Source: Candidatus Gastranaerophilales bacterium (lineage in GTDB: Bacteria > Cyanobacteriota > Vampirovibrionia > Gastranaerophilales > Gastranaerophilaceae). From it: DNA of 41,037 nt. Position 1 is the first letter of the stretch, and every line of letters begins with the position of its first letter. This document shows, in pieces, positions 31,933-40,438 of this stretch. The DNA lies in NCBI GenBank assembly GCA_944323285.1, contig CALURV010000012.1, positions 1-41,037 on the forward strand, given 5' to 3'. The notes beneath the pieces were generated by a model. The model did no database searches and was not told the DNA's origin. It worked only from the letters and a program-made list of their open reading frames with translations. The position numbers and the translations under genes were made by a program.

Positions 31933-32484
31933 TTATTTGTACTTTTTTTGGGCTTCTCCTATAATATTCGCAGCCGCAGTAAGATTTTTTGCTATATCAC
32001 TGTATAATTTTTTTTCTTCACCATATGGTATTGATGTATTCATTAGTTCATCTACATTTTGGCTTATATCACTTAATGTTTCAACTGCTTTCTGTATTTT
32101 TTCTTTTTTTTGTTTTAAGAAAAAATAATTTATCAATGGAGTATTTTCTATAAAAAAAGCAATTGTTTTTTTTATATTTTTTCTTATTTTATTACTCGGA
32201 GTATCTATGAAAAAATTATTTGTATCTTCTTTTTTCACATCATTATCTTCTATAACTTCATCCGGAAGATAATCTGTATCTATTGTATTTAACCGTTTAC
32301 TTCTTCTCTTTCTTTTTATCGTTTTGGATGTCTTTTTGTTTATTATTTGTTCGTTTATTTCCGCTGAAAAAACATTACTTTGATATAGATAATTTTCATT
32401 ATCTATTGCCATGTTTATTGTGTTACCAGTATTCTTTGTATAGAAAGATACCGGTTGATTTATATTATTGCTTGATATTTCCAT
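31933..32484 (-). CDS. hypothetical protein, basic with C-terminal helix bundle
   Basis: 183 residues; no family recognised. A polar Asn-rich N-terminus (1-45) is followed by a strongly basic stretch KTIKRKRRSKR (about 54-64), an acidic segment, and one moderately hydrophobic helix (KKTIAFFIENTPLINYFFLK, about 106-125). It ends in a helical region with heptad-like spacing (AVETLSDISQNVDELM, IAKNLTAAANIIGEAQK). A ribosome site AAGGGAAA precedes the ATG. It lies directly upstream of ftsZ in the same direction, with a 176-base gap holding the ftsZ promoter candidate. The basic patch suggests DNA, RNA or lipid contact, which is only an inference. Confidence 0.65.
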   Translation of the reverse strand: MEISSNNINQPVSFYTKNTGNTINMAIDNENYLYQSNVFSAEINEQIINKKTSKTIKRKRRSKRLNTIDTDYLPDEVIEDNDVKKEDTNNFFIDTPSNKIRKNIKKTIAFFIENTPLINYFFLKQKKEKIQKAVETLSDISQNVDELMNTSIPYGEEKKLYSDIAKNLTAAANIIGEAQKKYK

Positions 32485-32607: not shown

Positions 32608-34395
32608 TTACATTGCTGTTTTTGTAATTACATATTCAAAATATTTATCAATTACTCTCTTTAATATATTATTTTTTGTATTTAAATAATAATATATTAT
32701 ACTTCTTATAATATTAAATTTTATCTTTCCATGTTTTGCAACATACAAATATTCCCATTGCGGATGTAAAAATATAAATGATATTGTCTTCATTATTTTG
32801 TCAATCTCTTTCGCTATTTCTTTTCTTTTTTCAACATATTCACTGCTATAATTTATCTGACTTTTATAATATTCATATTTTTCTCCCATAATTGAACTAT
32901 TGGGAAACTCAACTCTACCTATATTAATAACATTATCTATATTTTTACAATTTTCTTGTATAAATTTTAAATTCTCATACATATCCTCTATTGTTTCTGA
33001 TGGAAGTCCAAACATTAAATATATATTATTTAAAATTCCTGCTTTATTTGAATCTTTTAAAACTCTTTTTGCTGTTTCTATATTGATTCCTTTATTTATA
33101 TAATCAAGAAGCTTTTGTGAACAAGAATCTAAACCCCAATGTATTGCTATACAGCCTGATTTTTTTATCTTCTTTAACAACTCTAAACTAAATTCTTTTT
33201 CTAATCTTGCATAAAAATTATATTTTATATTAAGTTTCTTTTTTATCAATATATCTGCAACTCTACTTATATAATTTGGATGAATAGAATTATCCCAAAA
33301 AGCAAAATACTTTGTATTATATTTTTTCGATAAATATTCAATCTCATTTGTAAACCGCTCTACACTCATTAAACTATAGCGTCTTTCCCCACCAGAACAA
33401 TTACAATAAATACACTTCCCCCAATAACAGGAATTTGTCATTGAAGCTCTTACGGGAAGTATTAACTCGGGTATCAGATAATCTTCTTTTCTGCAATTAA
33501 CAAAGTTTTGATACGGCAATAAATTTATATTTTCTTTTTCTTTTTCTTGTTTAAATCGTAACTTATTATTTTCTACATACAATAAATTACAAATATCACT
33601 TATTGGAATTTCTCCTTTTTTATATCTTACTATATCTTTTACCGTTTTTGTGCTATCTCCAATACTTATTGAATCAAAAAAAACTCCAAATAATTCCTTT
33701 AAATTGTTTATTTTGACATACCTATCACTAAAATAACTTCCGCCTATATTTACATGTATATTTTTGTCTTTTTGTTTTATCATATAGGCAAACATTAAAC
33801 CAGATATTAATTCTGAATATTTTAGAATTTGTATCCCTACAACATTTGGGTTCTTATCTATTATTTCTTTAACTTTTTCTTCATAAAAATCTTTAAAATT
33901 GTTTATTTTACTATTAAATAAAAATAATATATCTTCTACATTTATTGAAAAAATTTTTTCCTCTTCTTCGTAAACTTTTGAACATAAATTTATTATATTT
34001 TCTTTTTTTATTATCAATGCTAGGGTTGTATAATAATAAAAATATACATAATTGTTTATTAATTTGTCATTCTTCAAAAATGTTTTGTATCTATCAAAGT
34101 TGTTAATATTTTTTCTTATCCAAAATAAATATTTTATAATTTCCTTACTACTGCTATATAAAATTTTTTGATATATTTTAGGATATTTCAAATATTCTTT
34201 ATTTTTATAAAAAATTTTTAACCTATTATTATATAATAAAACTTTTTCAGAATCTAAATATTCAAAATACTCTGCATCTAAATTTAAATATTCACATTCT
34301 ACACCTTCTCTCTCTAGTATACTTATTAATGATGAAATTCCTGGAATCGGTATAAAATAATATCTCATTATAGGAACTACAAAAATATATTTCAC
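32608..34395 (-). CDS. B12-binding-domain radical SAM enzyme
   Basis: 595 residues. The N-terminal half contains a cobalamin-binding-like Rossmann region (about 170-235, VVGIQILKYSELISGLMFAY then HVNIGGSYFS), although no DxHxxG motif is seen, so cobalamin may bind base-on-free or not at all. The radical SAM core begins with C323-YWGK-C328-IY-C331, a CX4CX2C cluster motif shared with B12-radical SAM proteins of the RiPP-maturation type. The following ERRYSLMSVERFTNEIEYL and FAFWDNSI also match that group. Later strands HWGLDS and YLMFGLPSET complete the barrel. Likely chemistry is C-methylation or C-C bond formation on a peptide or small molecule. The GTG start directly abuts the TAG of the PurD-like gene, so the two are translated together. 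Confidence 0.85.
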   Translation of the reverse strand: MKYIFVVPIMRYYFIPIPGISSLISILEREGVECEYLNLDAEYFEYLDSEKVLLYNNRLKIFYKNKEYLKYPKIYQKILYSSSKEIIKYLFWIRKNINNFDRYKTFLKNDKLINNYVYFYYYTTLALIIKKENIINLCSKVYEEEEKIFSINVEDILFLFNSKINNFKDFYEEKVKEIIDKNPNVVGIQILKYSELISGLMFAYMIKQKDKNIHVNIGGSYFSDRYVKINNLKELFGVFFDSISIGDSTKTVKDIVRYKKGEIPISDICNLLYVENNKLRFKQEKEKENINLLPYQNFVNCRKEDYLIPELILPVRASMTNSCYWGKCIYCNCSGGERRYSLMSVERFTNEIEYLSKKYNTKYFAFWDNSIHPNYISRVADILIKKKLNIKYNFYARLEKEFSLELLKKIKKSGCIAIHWGLDSCSQKLLDYINKGINIETAKRVLKDSNKAGILNNIYLMFGLPSETIEDMYENLKFIQENCKNIDNVINIGRVEFPNSSIMGEKYEYYKSQINYSSEYVEKRKEIAKEIDKIMKTISFIFLHPQWEYLYVAKHGKIKFNIIRSIIYYYLNTKNNILKRVIDKYFEYVITKTAM

Positions 34396-35652
34396 CTAAT
34401 TTTCACCTATATCTGTCCTGTAATAAATATTTTTATCTTTTATTCTGCTTATATATTCATATAAGTCTGGAAATGGATTCTTAGAGTCATTTTTCATTAT
34501 TACAAATATATTTATATTTGTATATATTTTAGCATTACCTTTTTCATCAATATCTTTAATATTAAAATTAATCACAATATCTTTACTTCCTTTTAGAAAG
34601 TTTTTGGGTATTTTAATCTTTCTTGTTTCTACAATATTGGGGAAATATTTGTAATCTTTATGTACTACATTTACTGCTCCTGTTATTCCTGGTTTATAAT
34701 TAATTTCTACACCTTCCAATTCTGAAACAGCTGTTTTATACATTATTTCAAGTAAATCACTATCTATATGCTCAATTAGCACCTCAAACTCTGGAGTACA
34801 AGGTCGCATGTTAAATTCTAAATTATATATATTTTCTTCTGTAAATATCAAATCTGATGCAAAAACTCCTGTGAAATTAGGTTTTACTTCTTGAAATACC
34901 TCCTCTAACTTCTTTACATATTTATTAATTAATGCTTTTTTTCCGTCAGTTAATTTTACCGGTACATAACTACCCATTGAACCTGTATTTATTCCTTCAT
35001 TATTATTCTTTAACCGTTTATAATCTCTAACTGGTTCCAATGGTATTAATATTTTTCCATCCCATAATGTATGAAGCGTTACTTCTTCTCCCTCTATATA
35101 TCTTTCTGCTATAAAAAAAGTATCTTCTTTTAATATTTTCTTTGCTTTTCTTAAACATTCTTTTTTTGTTCTACATATATATGTACCAAATCCAGCTTGT
35201 TGCTTATTATCTTTTATTATTATTGGATAACCATATTCTTCTATTGCTTCATCCAACTCTTTTTTATTTTTTACTATCATATATTCACTTGTTGGAATAT
35301 TATGTTTTGCCATAAATTCTTTTCCCAAACATTTTGAACATTCAAGTTCTAACCAACTTTTAGTTATTCCAAATGTCGGAATCCCCAGATTATATTTAAA
35401 ATAATTAACCAACCCCCTATTTACATATAATCCTGTTACTACTACAAAATTAATATTATTTTTTTTTACAAACTCATAACAATCTTTTATATTATCAAGA
35501 TTAACATATTCTATATTATCAGCTTTCTCATAAATACTTTTATAACTTCTTCGTATATATACTTTATTTAGATATATTGAACTGCTAAACTTTCTTACTA
35601 AAGAAATCCAAAGTAAATCTTCGCATAATAATAATATATTTATATTTTTCAT
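34396..35652 (-). CDS. PurD-like ATP-grasp ligase
   Basis: 418 residues with the architecture of glycinamide ribonucleotide synthetase. An N-terminal Rossmann-like domain (1-100) is followed by KCLGKEFMAKHNIPTSEY, the ATP-grasp lysine segment YPIIIKDNKQQAGFGTYICR, RYIEGEEVTLHTLWDG, then EPVRDYKRLKNNNEGINTGSMGSY and the metal-binding NLEFNMRP. The first domain does not keep the GGGGREHA loop of true PurD, and neighbours are not purine genes, so this is a paralogue recruited to form an amide between a carboxylate and an amine in a specialised pathway. It lies between the 59-residue peptide gene and the radical SAM gene, with zero spacing to the latter. A housekeeping PurD role is unlikely. The ribosome site is weak. 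Confidence 0.82.
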   Translation of the reverse strand: MKNINILLLCEDLLWISLVRKFSSSIYLNKVYIRRSYKSIYEKADNIEYVNLDNIKDCYEFVKKNNINFVVVTGLYVNRGLVNYFKYNLGIPTFGITKSWLELECSKCLGKEFMAKHNIPTSEYMIVKNKKELDEAIEEYGYPIIIKDNKQQAGFGTYICRTKKECLRKAKKILKEDTFFIAERYIEGEEVTLHTLWDGKILIPLEPVRDYKRLKNNNEGINTGSMGSYVPVKLTDGKKALINKYVKKLEEVFQEVKPNFTGVFASDLIFTEENIYNLEFNMRPCTPEFEVLIEHIDSDLLEIMYKTAVSELEGVEINYKPGITGAVNVVHKDYKYFPNIVETRKIKIPKNFLKGSKDIVINFNIKDIDEKGNAKIYTNINIFVIMKNDSKNPFPDLYEYISRIKDKNIYYRTDIGEN

Positions 35653-35870
35653 TTTATTACTTTCTATACTTTGACAATATATTTAATAATAAATTCGGCA
35701 TAATATTTACTCAATCTATTGAATCTCTGATTTGTTTTTATATAACTCAGTTACCTCTATTATTTTTTCAGTTAATACAAAAATAAAGTATAAACAAATT
35801 ATAAAAACAAATTAATTTATACTATACTAATTCTCTAATACTATCTATAGTTTAATTCTGTTTATTTCTA

Positions 35871-36050
35871 TTATCTAATGAGCGCACTCCATTGTTTCCC
35901 AACAACTACAGAATCTTCAGGATCAATAATCATATCATCAGGAAAGTCTACATTATTTCCATCATCTATATTTAACATTTGTTCTTGACTATCATTACCT
36001 GATAACTTTGAATTAAACATATTTTTAAAAGATTCAAAAAAATTTTTCAT
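35871..36050 (-). CDS. 59-residue peptide, candidate RiPP precursor
   Basis: A short frame with ATG at 36048-36050, AGGAAA 4-5 bases upstream, an extended -10 TGATATAAT about 30 bases upstream, and TAA at 35871-35873. The first 20 residues are amphipathic and basic (MKNFFESFKNMFNSKL). The middle is acidic (about 29-46, with DDGNNVDFPDDM and IDPED). The C-terminus is a sharply different neutral-to-basic tail SVVVGKQWSALIR (47-59). A polar leader plus a distinct short C-terminal core, on the same strand as an ATP-grasp ligase and a B12-type radical SAM enzyme, is the layout of a ribosomal peptide precursor. Trp54, Lys52 and Val48-50 are obvious candidate modification sites. It has no cysteine. 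Alternatively it could be a small regulatory protein; no homologue is recalled. Confidence 0.7.
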   Translation of the reverse strand: MKNFFESFKNMFNSKLSGNDSQEQMLNIDDGNNVDFPDDMIIDPEDSVVVGKQWSALIR

Positions 36051-36374
36051 ATATTTCCTATTCTTTTTATTATTTTATATTATATCACATATAATAAATT
36101 TTTAATATATTATATTTTCTATTATAAATGTTTTTATTATTTTTTGTAGAATCACCCTTTTTATATTATAGATTTAATAAAATATATTAGTATTTAATGC
36201 TTAGATTTTTTAGAATTATAATAAAGCAATGTATTTATATATTTTCCCAATAATATATTTTTTAATCATTTTTAAACAGAAATAATATATTTAACATAAT
36301 ATATTTAACATAATCTCTTTATAAATAATTTATTTTTTAATTATAACTAATATTTTTTTTAAATTCTGTAAATC
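36051..36374. other. AT-rich leader region of the peptide gene
   Basis: 324 bases between the TupA-like gene and the peptide gene. It holds the extended -10 TGATATAAT (minus strand, 36079-36087) and a 14-base tandem duplication of AATATATTTAACAT at 36284-36311. No coding frame or RNA gene is seen. Confidence 0.55.
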
Positions 36375-37271
36375 TTAAATTTTTAATAAATTTCCTAATT
36401 CCACATCAAATTTTTTGTTGCTAAAAGGAATTAATCCTGCAAATGGAGTAAATGTCATTTCCCAAATTATAACTCTTTCATCTGTACATGCAAAATCAAT
36501 TCTTACATAACTAAATCCCTTTGAAAGAATTTTTGCATACTCCAGCATTTCTTCTAAAAATAATGGTTTTTTAATTTCACTTTTCAACTCAGCACCTTTA
36601 TATGTATAAGGTAAAATTTTCCAATCAGTATCATAAAATTCCGACGATTTATCTGCTTTTAATACTTCTATCATTTGGGGGGCTTCATTAAAACAGTGTA
36701 TTTGTATATCTATACTAAATTTTATGTTTCTAATCATTTGTTCAATAAATATCTTACTATCTATATTTTTATATTGAGGTTCTAATGCAAATTGCAAATA
36801 ATTATTCCTAACTAAATATGTAACAATTTTTTCCAAGTCTTTTATCTTCTCTTTAATTTTTTCTTTATTATAAATAAAAATGTTCTTTTCCCAAGAATCA
36901 TTTATTTTAATTACAAATTTTTTAGGTAAATATGAAAAATCTATTTCTTTAAAATTATTCCAAATTCCATATATCTGAGCAATATGCCCCATCCCAATAT
37001 TCTCTGTTATATATGCTTTTACTTTTATTTTATCTGTAAGAATACTTTTTAAAGACAATTTTTCATTATATATTAACCACCTTATCTTTTCATTAAAAGT
37101 TTTCGGATTAAGATAATTATAGTCATATCCTAATATATCACTTGAATATTTATTTATATAATAATCTTTATATTTTTCAGGACAATATTTAAAAAAAGGA
37201 TATTGTCCTTTTGTCTTCTTATAATATTTATCTAATAAATATTTCATACTTGTGATTTTCCCTTTTTTCAT
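36375..37271 (-). CDS. TupA-like ATP-grasp protein
   Basis: 298 residues resembling the ATPgrasp_TupA family found in surface polysaccharide clusters; TupA takes part in teichuronopeptide synthesis in alkaliphilic Bacillus. Family marks are NPKTFNEKIRWLIYNEKL near the N-terminus, TDKIKVKAYITENIG, PKKFVIKIN, SKIFIEQMI, the late YVRIDFACTDERVIIWEMTFTPFAGLIPF and the C-terminal block. The family is thought to couple amino or acyl groups to glycan, but its reaction is poorly defined. An alternative start nine codons in (MKYLLDKY, 37247) has AAAAGGG upstream but at a long spacing of 12. It follows the coiled-coil glycosyltransferase by 26 bases. The peptide gene downstream invites the idea of a peptide-decorated glycan. 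Confidence 0.8.
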   Translation of the reverse strand: MKKGKITSMKYLLDKYYKKTKGQYPFFKYCPEKYKDYYINKYSSDILGYDYNYLNPKTFNEKIRWLIYNEKLSLKSILTDKIKVKAYITENIGMGHIAQIYGIWNNFKEIDFSYLPKKFVIKINDSWEKNIFIYNKEKIKEKIKDLEKIVTYLVRNNYLQFALEPQYKNIDSKIFIEQMIRNIKFSIDIQIHCFNEAPQMIEVLKADKSSEFYDTDWKILPYTYKGAELKSEIKKPLFLEEMLEYAKILSKGFSYVRIDFACTDERVIIWEMTFTPFAGLIPFSNKKFDVELGNLLKI

Positions 37272-37297: not shown

Positions 37298-38818
37298 TTA
37301 TCTTATTTCAAGCTCTTTCAATTGAGGGTATTTTTCATTAAGATTCTTTATTTCTTCTTCTGACAAATTTGTTTCCTTTATTGATTGAATCATATTTTGA
37401 TAATACTCTTCCTTAAATTCATCCTTTATCATGCTGTAATAATATAGAAGATTATGAATTTTATATGTAATAAAATCTTTTCTCAGAATATTATAAGTAT
37501 TTGTTTCTCTCATTAAATTCTCAACAATATTAAAAATCTCTATATGATCAATTAATCTCCTGTTATTATCAGTTAATACAGAACCTTCTCTATTGAATCT
37601 GTATACATATAATTTTTCTCTTATAAAAAATATTTTTTCTGCTGTTAATAGTGTTCCAAAAATAACTTTGTGATCTTCAAAATCAAGTCCTTCAGCAAAA
37701 TCTATATTATTCTTATCAAATAATTCTTTTGTATATAGTTTATTCCAAACACACATAGGATAACTAAATGGAGATAAATCTCTCCAATTAAATATCTTAT
37801 CATCAGGAATATTTTCAAAATTTGCATCAACAAAATAGGGAAACGGTGTACTTATCTGATTTTTTTCATCAAAACCATCCGGCATACACATTGCTATATC
37901 TAAATCTTTTTCTTTTATTAAATTATATAATCTTTCAAACATATTTGGTTTTACCCAATCATCGGGATCAACAAAACCAATACATTCTCCTGAAGCTATT
38001 CTTAATCCGTCATTTCTTGCAGCACCTGTCCCTTTATTTTCTTTATGAATTACTTTTATTCTTGAATCTTTTGATTTATATTCTTCTAAAATGTCATAAC
38101 TATCATCTGTTGATCCGTCATTTACACATATTATCTCTATTTCTTTTAAAGTTTGATTTATCAAACTGTCTAATGATTGTCTTAAATACTTTCCAACATT
38201 ATATACAGGTAATATTACAGAAACTTTTGGATTCTGATTTATACTTTCTTTCTCTTTTTGTTGCCTTACTTCGCTTAATATAATATTTTCTTTTTCTTTT
38301 TCTTTATTTTTTAATTTGTTTACTATTTTCTTTTTTAGTTTGATTAATTTTTTAAATGGTTTTATTTCTTTCTCAAAATACTCTCTCTGTTCTATTATGT
38401 GATTACTTAATGTTTCTTCTAAATTTTTATATCTGTCATCTTTTGCTTGAAGTTCTTCTTCATAATCTTTTTTTAGGTTATCCATTTGGTTTTTTAAATT
38501 ATTTATATGCCAGTCTTCAACTTCTTTACAGCGTCTTTTTATTTCTTTTTCATACCAATTTCTTTGTGATTCAAATTCTGAAATATAATATTGTTTTATC
38601 TTTTCTAAATCCTGTGTATTTTTTACATCAAAATTTTGTTCAAGTACTTTTTTCTCTTCATAACTTTTATTTTCACACTCAATTTTAACTTTTTCTATTT
38701 CATACTTATATTTTGATTTTAATAATTCTATTTCACTCTCATAATATCTTTTTTGCATTTCAAGAGATTCTTGATATTGTTTTTCCAATTCTATATAATT
38801 ATATTCTTTTTCTGCCAT
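37298..38818 (-). CDS. family 2 glycosyltransferase with N-terminal coiled coil
   Basis: 506 residues. Residues 1-175 are a long Glu/Lys coiled coil rich in Tyr and Trp (RYYESEIELLKSKY, RNWYEKEIKRR, VEDWHINNL). The GT-A domain begins near 197 with KVSVILPVYNVGKYL, then QTLKEIEIICVNDGSTDDS, ENKGTGAARNDG and the metal-binding DPDDW. MCVWNKLYTKELF and YRFNREGSV follow, as in capsule-type GT2 enzymes. The start has AGGG seven bases upstream. There is no membrane helix, so it acts at the cytosolic face, perhaps tethered through the coiled coil. It is in line with another GT2 whose coiled coil is at the opposite end. Donor and acceptor sugars cannot be read. Confidence 0.88.
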   Translation of the reverse strand: MAEKEYNYIELEKQYQESLEMQKRYYESEIELLKSKYKYEIEKVKIECENKSYEEKKVLEQNFDVKNTQDLEKIKQYYISEFESQRNWYEKEIKRRCKEVEDWHINNLKNQMDNLKKDYEEELQAKDDRYKNLEETLSNHIIEQREYFEKEIKPFKKLIKLKKKIVNKLKNKEKEKENIILSEVRQQKEKESINQNPKVSVILPVYNVGKYLRQSLDSLINQTLKEIEIICVNDGSTDDSYDILEEYKSKDSRIKVIHKENKGTGAARNDGLRIASGECIGFVDPDDWVKPNMFERLYNLIKEKDLDIAMCMPDGFDEKNQISTPFPYFVDANFENIPDDKIFNWRDLSPFSYPMCVWNKLYTKELFDKNNIDFAEGLDFEDHKVIFGTLLTAEKIFFIREKLYVYRFNREGSVLTDNNRRLIDHIEIFNIVENLMRETNTYNILRKDFITYKIHNLLYYYSMIKDEFKEEYYQNMIQSIKETNLSEEEIKNLNEKYPQLKELEIR

Positions 38819-38896: not shown

Positions 38897-40438
38897 CTAA
38901 AATATCCATATTTTCTTAATTTTATTTTTTGCTTTTTCAATTAATCTACATATTTTTAAAGTAATCCTAACTAATAAAAATTTCTTTTCATAATACTCTT
39001 TCTGTTCTTCTAATTGTTTTTTATAATCATTTTGTATTTCCTGACAATGTTTTTGCCACCAAAATTCAATTTCCTCTTGCTTTTTTTTAAAAAATTCTCT
39101 CTCTATCTCTATCGCTTTATTCTTCTCTTCCTCACTATGATTTTGCCACCAAGTCTCTACTTGCGCTTTTTCTTTGCTAAAATTTTCCCGTTCTATTTCT
39201 ATTACTTTATTTTTTTCTTCTTCACAATGATTTTGCCACCAGGTTTCTACTTGCACTTTTTCTTTACTAAAATTTTCCCGTTCTATTTCTATTACTTTAT
39301 TTTTTTCTTCTTCACAATGATTTTGCCACCAGGTCTCAATTCTCTCTTTTTCCTCTTTTGCCTCCTTCTTATATTGCTCAAGATAATCTTTTATTGCTAT
39401 TATATCTAAATTACATTTATGCTCTGCTGCTTTTATCCGTTTATTTGTACTTTTATATTTTTCTATTAAAAATGTCCAAAATTCATAATATGAACTTTTT
39501 AAAATTGCACAAAACTCTTCATAACAATAACTTGTTTTCAGTTTTTCTTTATCTTCTTCTGTCAAACTTATTTTCTTATATAATGCTTGCATCCTATTAT
39601 AATACTCTTCATAATATATATTATCCAATAAAGTATACCTATGAAAAATATCATCTATTATCCAGCTTATTATATCTATCTTTTTTTCTTCAAAAAATTC
39701 AGCTTGTTTTAATATTTCATAGGTTTTCTCAACCATAGGAATTCTGTCATATACTTTTTTATTACAATTCTGCATTGTGGAATATCTTCTATTTTCACGA
39801 TAATAATATAAACTCTCCCATAAAATATTTACTTTGTTGGCCTTTAAATAAGTTTCAAAAAAGAAAGGCAAATCTTCATAGATATATCCATCTGTAAATC
39901 TTACATTTATTCTTTTTAAAAAATCTTTTTTATATATTTTATTCCATAAAACTATATTTATTTTTAATATCTCGTTTTTTGTATCTTTAGGAGAAAATAC
40001 ATTTTCTCCGAATTTTTCAAGCTCTTTTAAATCGTAATAATCATTTGTATAACTTTGTTGGGTTTTATCATCATATAAATATGACTGACACATCGTAATA
40101 TCTGTATCGTCTATTTTTGCTCTATTATAGAGTTTCTCAAACATATTAAGTTCAACCCAGTCATCTGAATCAACAAAACCTATATATTCACCTTGCGCAA
40201 TTTCTAATCCTATATTTCTTGCACAAGATTGACCCGAATGCTTTTTTGTGTTTATTAATTTTATCCTTTTATCTTCTTTTGCATATTTTAAAACTATATC
40301 TTTTGAATTATCTGTTGATTCATCATCTATACATATAATTTCTATATCTTCTAAAGTTTGAGATATTAATGACTCTATACATTTCTCAATGTATCCTTCT
40401 ACATTATAAAAAGGAACTATTATTGATATCTTAGTCAT
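38897..40438 (-). CDS. family 2 glycosyltransferase with C-terminal tandem coiled-coil repeats
   Basis: 513 residues. The GT-A domain is at the N-terminus: KISIIVPFYNVEGYI, then LEDIEIICIDDESTDNS, KKHSGQSCARNIG and DSDDW near 95, with NIVLWNKIYKKDFL further on. From about residue 335 the protein becomes a charged helix containing four 30-residue repeats (about 366-465), each starting WWQNH or WWQKH and continuing EEEKNKVIEIERE-FSKEK. A basic C-terminal end (ICRLIEKAKNKIKKIW) may bind membrane. The start overlaps the stop of the preceding gene by 8 bases (ATGACTAA), showing coupling. It is a likely partner of the next GT2 through coiled-coil contacts. The acceptor is unknown. Confidence 0.88.
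   Translation of the reverse strand: MTKISIIVPFYNVEGYIEKCIESLISQTLEDIEIICIDDESTDNSKDIVLKYAKEDKRIKLINTKKHSGQSCARNIGLEIAQGEYIGFVDSDDWVELNMFEKLYNRAKIDDTDITMCQSYLYDDKTQQSYTNDYYDLKELEKFGENVFSPKDTKNEILKINIVLWNKIYKKDFLKRINVRFTDGYIYEDLPFFFETYLKANKVNILWESLYYYRENRRYSTMQNCNKKVYDRIPMVEKTYEILKQAEFFEEKKIDIISWIIDDIFHRYTLLDNIYYEEYYNRMQALYKKISLTEEDKEKLKTSYCYEEFCAILKSSYYEFWTFLIEKYKSTNKRIKAAEHKCNLDIIAIKDYLEQYKKEAKEEKERIETWWQNHCEEEKNKVIEIERENFSKEKVQVETWWQNHCEEEKNKVIEIERENFSKEKAQVETWWQNHSEEEKNKAIEIEREFFKKKQEEIEFWWQKHCQEIQNDYKKQLEEQKEYYEKKFLLVRITLKICRLIEKAKNKIKKIWIF
39051..39350 (-). repeat. 90-bp in-frame tandem repeat
   Basis: The plus-strand mark TTTTGCCACC occurs at 39051, 39141, 39231 and 39321, an exact 90-base period. 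The two central units are almost identical over their whole length. Each unit encodes 30 residues of the coiled coil. Confidence 0.9.

Follow-up and report, generated by a model that had tools for sequence, protein, structure and literature searches.

A TupA-linked family of hypervariable peptides in Gastranaerophilales, with a probable RiPP cluster that adds a PurD-like ligase and a B12-type radical SAM enzyme

We analysed a 41,037-nucleotide stretch of DNA (contig CALURV010000012.1, positions 1 to 41,037; hereafter the window) from the genome of a Candidatus Gastranaerophilales bacterium (GCA_944323285.1; genome G000), in which four minus-strand genes probably form a cluster for a ribosomally synthesized and post-translationally modified peptide (RiPP), with the chemistry proposed below. 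In order of transcription they encode a TupA-like ATP-grasp enzyme (P0004; 298 aa; 36375–37271), a 59-residue precursor peptide (P0003; 35871–36050), a PurD-like ATP-grasp ligase (P0002; 418 aa; 34396–35652) and a B12-type radical S-adenosylmethionine (SAM) enzyme (P0001; 595 aa; 32608–34395). That the cluster modifies the peptide is very likely, and the locus has the architecture of a RiPP system, with a small precursor conserved beside modifying enzymes and made up of a conserved leader and a variable core. An earlier note on this DNA had read the last three genes as a RiPP pathway, and the sequence agrees that they lie on one strand at these coordinates. Its reading stands in outline but lacks the peptide's recurrent partner, the TupA-like ATP-grasp directly upstream, which had gone unseen.

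The 59-residue frame is more than a chance open reading frame (ORF). Searched by its own sequence, P0003 had no homologue in 57 relatives, and its family emerged only through the gene neighbourhoods of the enzymes, where small ORFs of the relatives follow one plan (FF-type peptides): the N-terminus is rich in Phe, an acidic stretch containing a D[DE]-rich motif comes next, and the tail is short and variable. A profile of seven other family peptides, with P0003 excluded, recovered it at E 3.7e-5 among 1994 sequences, the best reversed control reaching 0.22. The window's genome holds a second pair of TupA and FF-type peptide (MKEFFNNFLNSFKNNN...; G000:C16, L085 7088–7282), and G028 has a syntenic peptide (L027 4550–4699). 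The earlier note had suggested comparing small frames beside orthologous ATP-grasp/radical SAM pairs; that comparison returned a recurring small frame with conserved leader and variable tail. Family libraries gave only weak NCBIfam matches for the peptides (acyl carrier protein, E 0.027; BH0509, E 0.04) and nothing better than E 0.05 in Pfam.

The division of FF-type peptides into leader and variable tail is drawn from their alignment. In P0003 the presumed leader spans residues 1–46 (35913–36050, minus strand), with a Phe-rich N-terminal helix and an acidic segment containing PDDMIID, both common to FF-type peptides. Residues 47–59 (SVVVGKQWSALIR; 35874–35912, minus strand), the variable end of the family, form the presumed core beyond an inferred boundary, and contain no Asp or Glu and one Lys. 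The good ribosome-binding site attributed to the gene is present as AGGAAA shortly 5' of the ATG (36054–36059, minus strand). The extended −10 promoter was not confirmed, promoter-like sites being no more frequent than chance (20 versus 20.7 in shuffles).

Gene order is preserved in a relative. In G028 the TupA, peptide, PurD-like and radical SAM genes, in that order, form a compact operon with intergenic distances of 17, 21 and −4 nt, and it occupies the ftsZ-side position that the cluster has in the window. The GTG start of the radical SAM gene in the window abuts the TAG of the PurD-like gene, and G028 and G011 retain the pair, with translational coupling between its genes. The ftsZ-side copy in G030 (G030:C54, L043 6264–9335) has decayed, with broken TupA, PurD-like and radical SAM genes and a peptide start that is still visible, and the intact parts of the G030 cluster are divided over two other loci; a further decayed copy of the window cluster, again with broken TupA, PurD-like and radical SAM genes, lies in G011 (G011:C17, L030 7319–8940). 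Around the second pair of the window's genome at G000:C16 are ftsH-like, uvrB-like and TPR-like genes (named from sequence), and neighbourhoods of this type carry a radical SAM gene with a peptide in G030:C9 and a PurD-like, TupA, PurD-like series in G034:C4. Within the TupA–peptide family a single sub-lineage carries PurD-like and B12 radical SAM genes as additions, and the window represents this version, in which the cluster encodes a B12-type radical SAM enzyme along with two ATP-grasps.

The wider family became apparent through small ORFs near more distantly related TupA genes in the genus. These ORFs share a second leader type, roughly NL(S/N)(D/E)EQI..LY(S/D)D(I/V)(I/V)E, and have hypervariable tails. 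A profile built from 26 of the LYDD-type leaders matched 40 of 997 small ORFs at E ≤ 0.002, the best reversed control scoring E 1.3. Matches from outside the seed include two peptides at G033:C85, one of which (MKNFFENFFNSGND...LTDEQINELYDDVYIDS...) unites both leader types. Across the genus, a family peptide stands on the same strand beside 45 of 76 TupA ORFs, nearly always 0–30 nt downstream, and no reversed ORF passes; once loci selected by their peptide are set aside, the count is 38 of 69. Genome-wide leader matches obtained independently of TupA give the same association, 38 of 77 sitting 10–435 nt downstream of a TupA match where 0.03 would be expected. Some TupA genes have no peptide by profile, and several of these have one that the profile missed (L072, L076, L104, L042 and L080).

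Tails diverge far more than leaders. Across 34 LYDD-type pairs with similar leaders, identity averaged 72% in leaders, 31% in tails and 23% in shuffled tails, and Cys makes up 10.1% of tail residues versus 0.1% of leader residues, leader and core being divided in both counts by a motif rule with no known cleavage site. Tails of the genus are usually Cys-rich and hypervariable, and share no C-terminal residue. Of 41 genomes in the genus, 22 have the LYDD leader (51 matches in G022 and 41 in G009), and none of the sampled genomes of other genera of the order or phylum has it. TupA copies number 48 in G022 and 47 in G009.

Prochlorosins are a RiPP family with one leader and many cores. The peptides of G022 and G009 resemble them in that a single genome joins dozens of hypervariable cores to the same conserved leader, and differ in that nearly every core has its own ATP-grasp copy (47–48 TupA) instead of one shared enzyme. 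In G022 (L145–L173) and G009 the tails are rich in Cys, Tyr and Gly and very different from one another, with nearly one ATP-grasp gene per peptide. A 214-residue ORF in G013 (G013:C2, L204 2440–3084) carries a leader-like repeat in four tandem copies ahead of a single tail rich in Cys and Tyr, and G013 holds nine leader matches, several in similarly long ORFs.

P0004 matches the Pfam family ATPgrasp_TupA well above its gathering score (PF14305; E 3.7e-35; 122 bits versus 25) and has no relative in the PDB by sequence. In a quick tree search, all peptide-linked TupAs formed one clade (SH-like approximate likelihood ratio test support 97) apart from glycan-type TupA, with the window's group as a clade of 7 (support 100) and the LYDD group as a clade of 51 (support 99). 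TupA is rare in other genera, where it mostly scores as the classic glycan type, and viral contigs hold only remote relatives (24–43% identity). That TupA acts on the peptide is likely.

The known TupA-like ATP-grasp domain Cj1438C amidates glucuronic acid of the Campylobacter jejuni capsule, forming amides on uronic acid carboxylates (PMC11800379). P0004 belongs to the same Pfam family, for which ATP-dependent amide formation on a carboxylate is the shared chemistry; unlike the glycan-locus enzyme, it falls in a divergent clade, is not fused to a glycosyltransferase and is paired with small peptide genes. The precedent invites a reading of the window as a surface-glycan decoration locus, in which uronic acids would receive amines or glycine from the TupA-like and PurD-like ligases, encoded beside GT2 glycosyltransferases, and the peptide would be incidental. 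Two GT2 genes, identified by family match, do flank the cluster on the minus strand with uncertain membership, one with an N-terminal coiled coil at 37298–38818 and one at 38897–40438, and in other genera the length of many TupA ORFs (552–763 aa) would accommodate a fused second domain, some of these ORFs having a glycosyltransferase-like start. Most other TupA–peptide pairs have no such neighbours, however, peptide linkage lies far above chance, and glycan-type TupAs fall outside the peptide-linked clade. Members of that clade lie beside YcaO proteins (L136 and L117) and SPASM radical SAM enzymes (L042, L073, L080, L104 and L117). We regard the glycan locus as unlikely.

Several TupA loci have further features. 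Next to SPASM radical SAM and TupA genes is another precursor type, short Cys-containing peptides such as MKKLYIKRMVKFSYIVAGGCCHFFCGNWGGTQTSHWDAN (L042 4167–4286, L080 3764–3886 and L104 2863–3021), two of which begin MKKLYIK. In other genera, a separate family of small acidic peptides that begin with MST (MST-type) lies immediately upstream of a distinct TupA clade (L195 2393–2644, L197 3438–3677, L199 2443–2658 and L203 2179–2394). A recurrent partner of several TupA/peptide loci (L037 9726–10850, L038 865–1578, L161 92–1237, L207 1544–2692 and L208 3992–5152) has weak Peptidase_U32 similarity in the two copies tested, and is a candidate leader protease or tailoring enzyme. At L038 (G021:C7:50000-69000), about 10.7 kb with radical SAM, glycosyltransferase-8 and TupA genes has a tandem duplicate. 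In the window itself, a 183-residue ORF with a weak ZapB-like match (31933–32484) lies between the radical SAM gene and ftsZ, and is found at the same place in G028 and G030.

The PurD-like enzyme resembles PurD along its full length, with a GARS_A match at E 3.2e-37 and 203.7 bits against TIGR00877 (purD), below the cut-off of 288. Aquifex PurD binds ATP through K103, K143, E185, E192 and K214, and glycine through D212, R287 and E292 (PMC8880213). By alignment, the equivalents in P0002 are identical (ATP: K107, K147, E183, E190 and K212; glycine: D210, R283 and E288), and these residues are retained in at least 10 of 11 PurD-like proteins. The N-domain motifs GxGxREH, NxG and GPExPL of true PurD are almost wholly lost from the group, in keeping with the earlier note's remark that the first domain differs. 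The motifs are tied to phosphoribosylamine only by family inference, because the phosphoribosylamine-bound structure is not known (PMC8880213). Residues kept for ATP and glycine, together with lost N-domain motifs, suggest an enzyme that probably transfers an amino acid, once activated, to an amine on a peptide; as a specific step in the window, we give aminoacyl transfer about an even chance. The adjoining peptide would on the simplest reading be the natural candidate acceptor, and the kept residues support the earlier note's idea of an amide-forming role.

As the earlier note had stated, no purine genes adjoin the window cluster, and the window's genome has no true PurD elsewhere. A purine function for the PurD-like gene was considered and rejected, with these two observations in view. 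Searched against genome contigs, the PurD-like protein returned nothing but true PurD of other phyla. G030 additionally carries a genuine PurN–PurD fusion elsewhere.

With two ATP-grasp enzymes adjoining a leader-bearing precursor with an acidic middle, the cluster recalls graspetides, in which ATP-grasps form side-chain lactones or lactams from core Asp and Glu. Both enzymes match TupA and PurD in Pfam and NCBIfam and not the RimK/MdnC-type ligases of graspetides, a survey of which names neither family, and Asp and Glu are absent from the presumed tails, beyond the inferred boundary, of 6 of 9 FF-type and 7 of 59 LYDD-type peptides. Membership fails because of enzyme type and the Asp/Glu content of many presumed tails, and we consider it very improbable. 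The same pair of ligases with a radical SAM enzyme beside one peptide, and the predicted PurD-type activation of a free amino acid, would also fit a PEARL-like scaffold, on which ATP-grasps add residues to the peptide end, the radical SAM enzyme alters them and a small molecule is released. Such a scaffold should keep its attachment end, whereas the tails are hypervariable with no shared C-terminal residue, and neither a PEARL-type tRNA ligase nor a release protease was seen. This arrangement seems to us slightly less probable even than the glycan locus, and we return to a modified core peptide as the preferred reading.

P0001 matches Radical_SAM at E 4e-18 and has the CX4CX2C motif at C323, C328 and C331, as first noted. 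Its best subfamily matches are TIGR03975 (rSAM_ocin_1, a RiPP C-methyltransferase), PhpK, HpnJ and ApyD, all far below cut-off, and most of the best-matching subfamilies are B12 radical SAM enzymes; no PDB relative was found by sequence. Some of the families nearest to it are known to carry out C-methylation. The RiPP enzymes of TIGR03975 and ApyD are among its best or near-best matches, but the scores reach only 88.6 of 281.85 and 64.3 of 750 bits, respectively, and the precursor is unrelated to theirs. C-methylation in the window, which the earlier note had proposed alongside crosslinking as the alternative, is a tentative assignment, somewhat short of even odds. In G002 (G002:C5, L041 4231–18293), eight tandem B12-type radical SAM genes precede a small acidic peptide ORF on the opposite strand and a YcaO gene.

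Building on the computed genes, peptide family, linkage, TupA clade and residue pattern, and on an inferred leader/core boundary, we propose substrates, an order of steps and a chemistry for the four-gene RiPP cluster. The Phe-rich N-terminus and acidic segment would serve as leader and the C-terminal tail (about SVVVGKQWSALIR) as core. Through an acyl-phosphate, the TupA-like enzyme that the entire family shares would install an amide on the peptide. The PurD-like enzyme may retain the first half-reaction of PurD, activating glycine or a similar amino acid, and would hand it to a peptide amine (Lys52 or the N-terminus) in place of phosphoribosylamine. The radical SAM enzyme would afterwards alter a C–H bond of the core, most likely by C-methylation.

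Several observations weigh against this reading. TupA and PurD-like genes occur together with no detected peptide at G030:C1 and G006:C5, and relatives of the radical SAM enzyme also occur without one. The LYDD-type leader profile misses the window peptide directly, the link going through FF-type peptides, and two of eight leave-one-out profile tests failed (G028, E 1.2; G018, not found), so the FF-type family is short and divergent. The B12-binding domain match of P0001 is weak (PF02310, E 0.005), GT2-like genes upstream of the cluster, seen in the window as well as in G028 and G030:C54, would be compatible with a glycan link, and no protease, exporter, cleavage site or product was identified at the window.

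No TupA- or PurD-type RiPP enzymes are described in the literature that we searched, with many subscription papers and bioRxiv outside its reach, and the TupA-linked peptide family is apparently undescribed. On balance we favour a new RiPP class defined by TupA-like ATP-grasps, confined, in the genomes sampled, to a single order of gut Melainabacteria and numbering as many as about 50 precursor–enzyme pairs in one genome, and including a PurD recruited from purine synthesis that supplies a peptide with glycine or some other amino acid. It would assign peptide substrates to two ATP-grasp families so far known from glycans and purines, and the evolution of a peptide ligase from a PurD that kept its amino-acid half-reaction and lost its N-domain motifs can be put to a direct test. 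The family offers a sizeable, hitherto unexplored collection of predicted modified peptides of uncultured gut bacteria. Where a genome has 47–48 TupA copies, most of them are next to a hypervariable peptide of their own, and the use of such diversity may lie in competition, signalling or host interaction.

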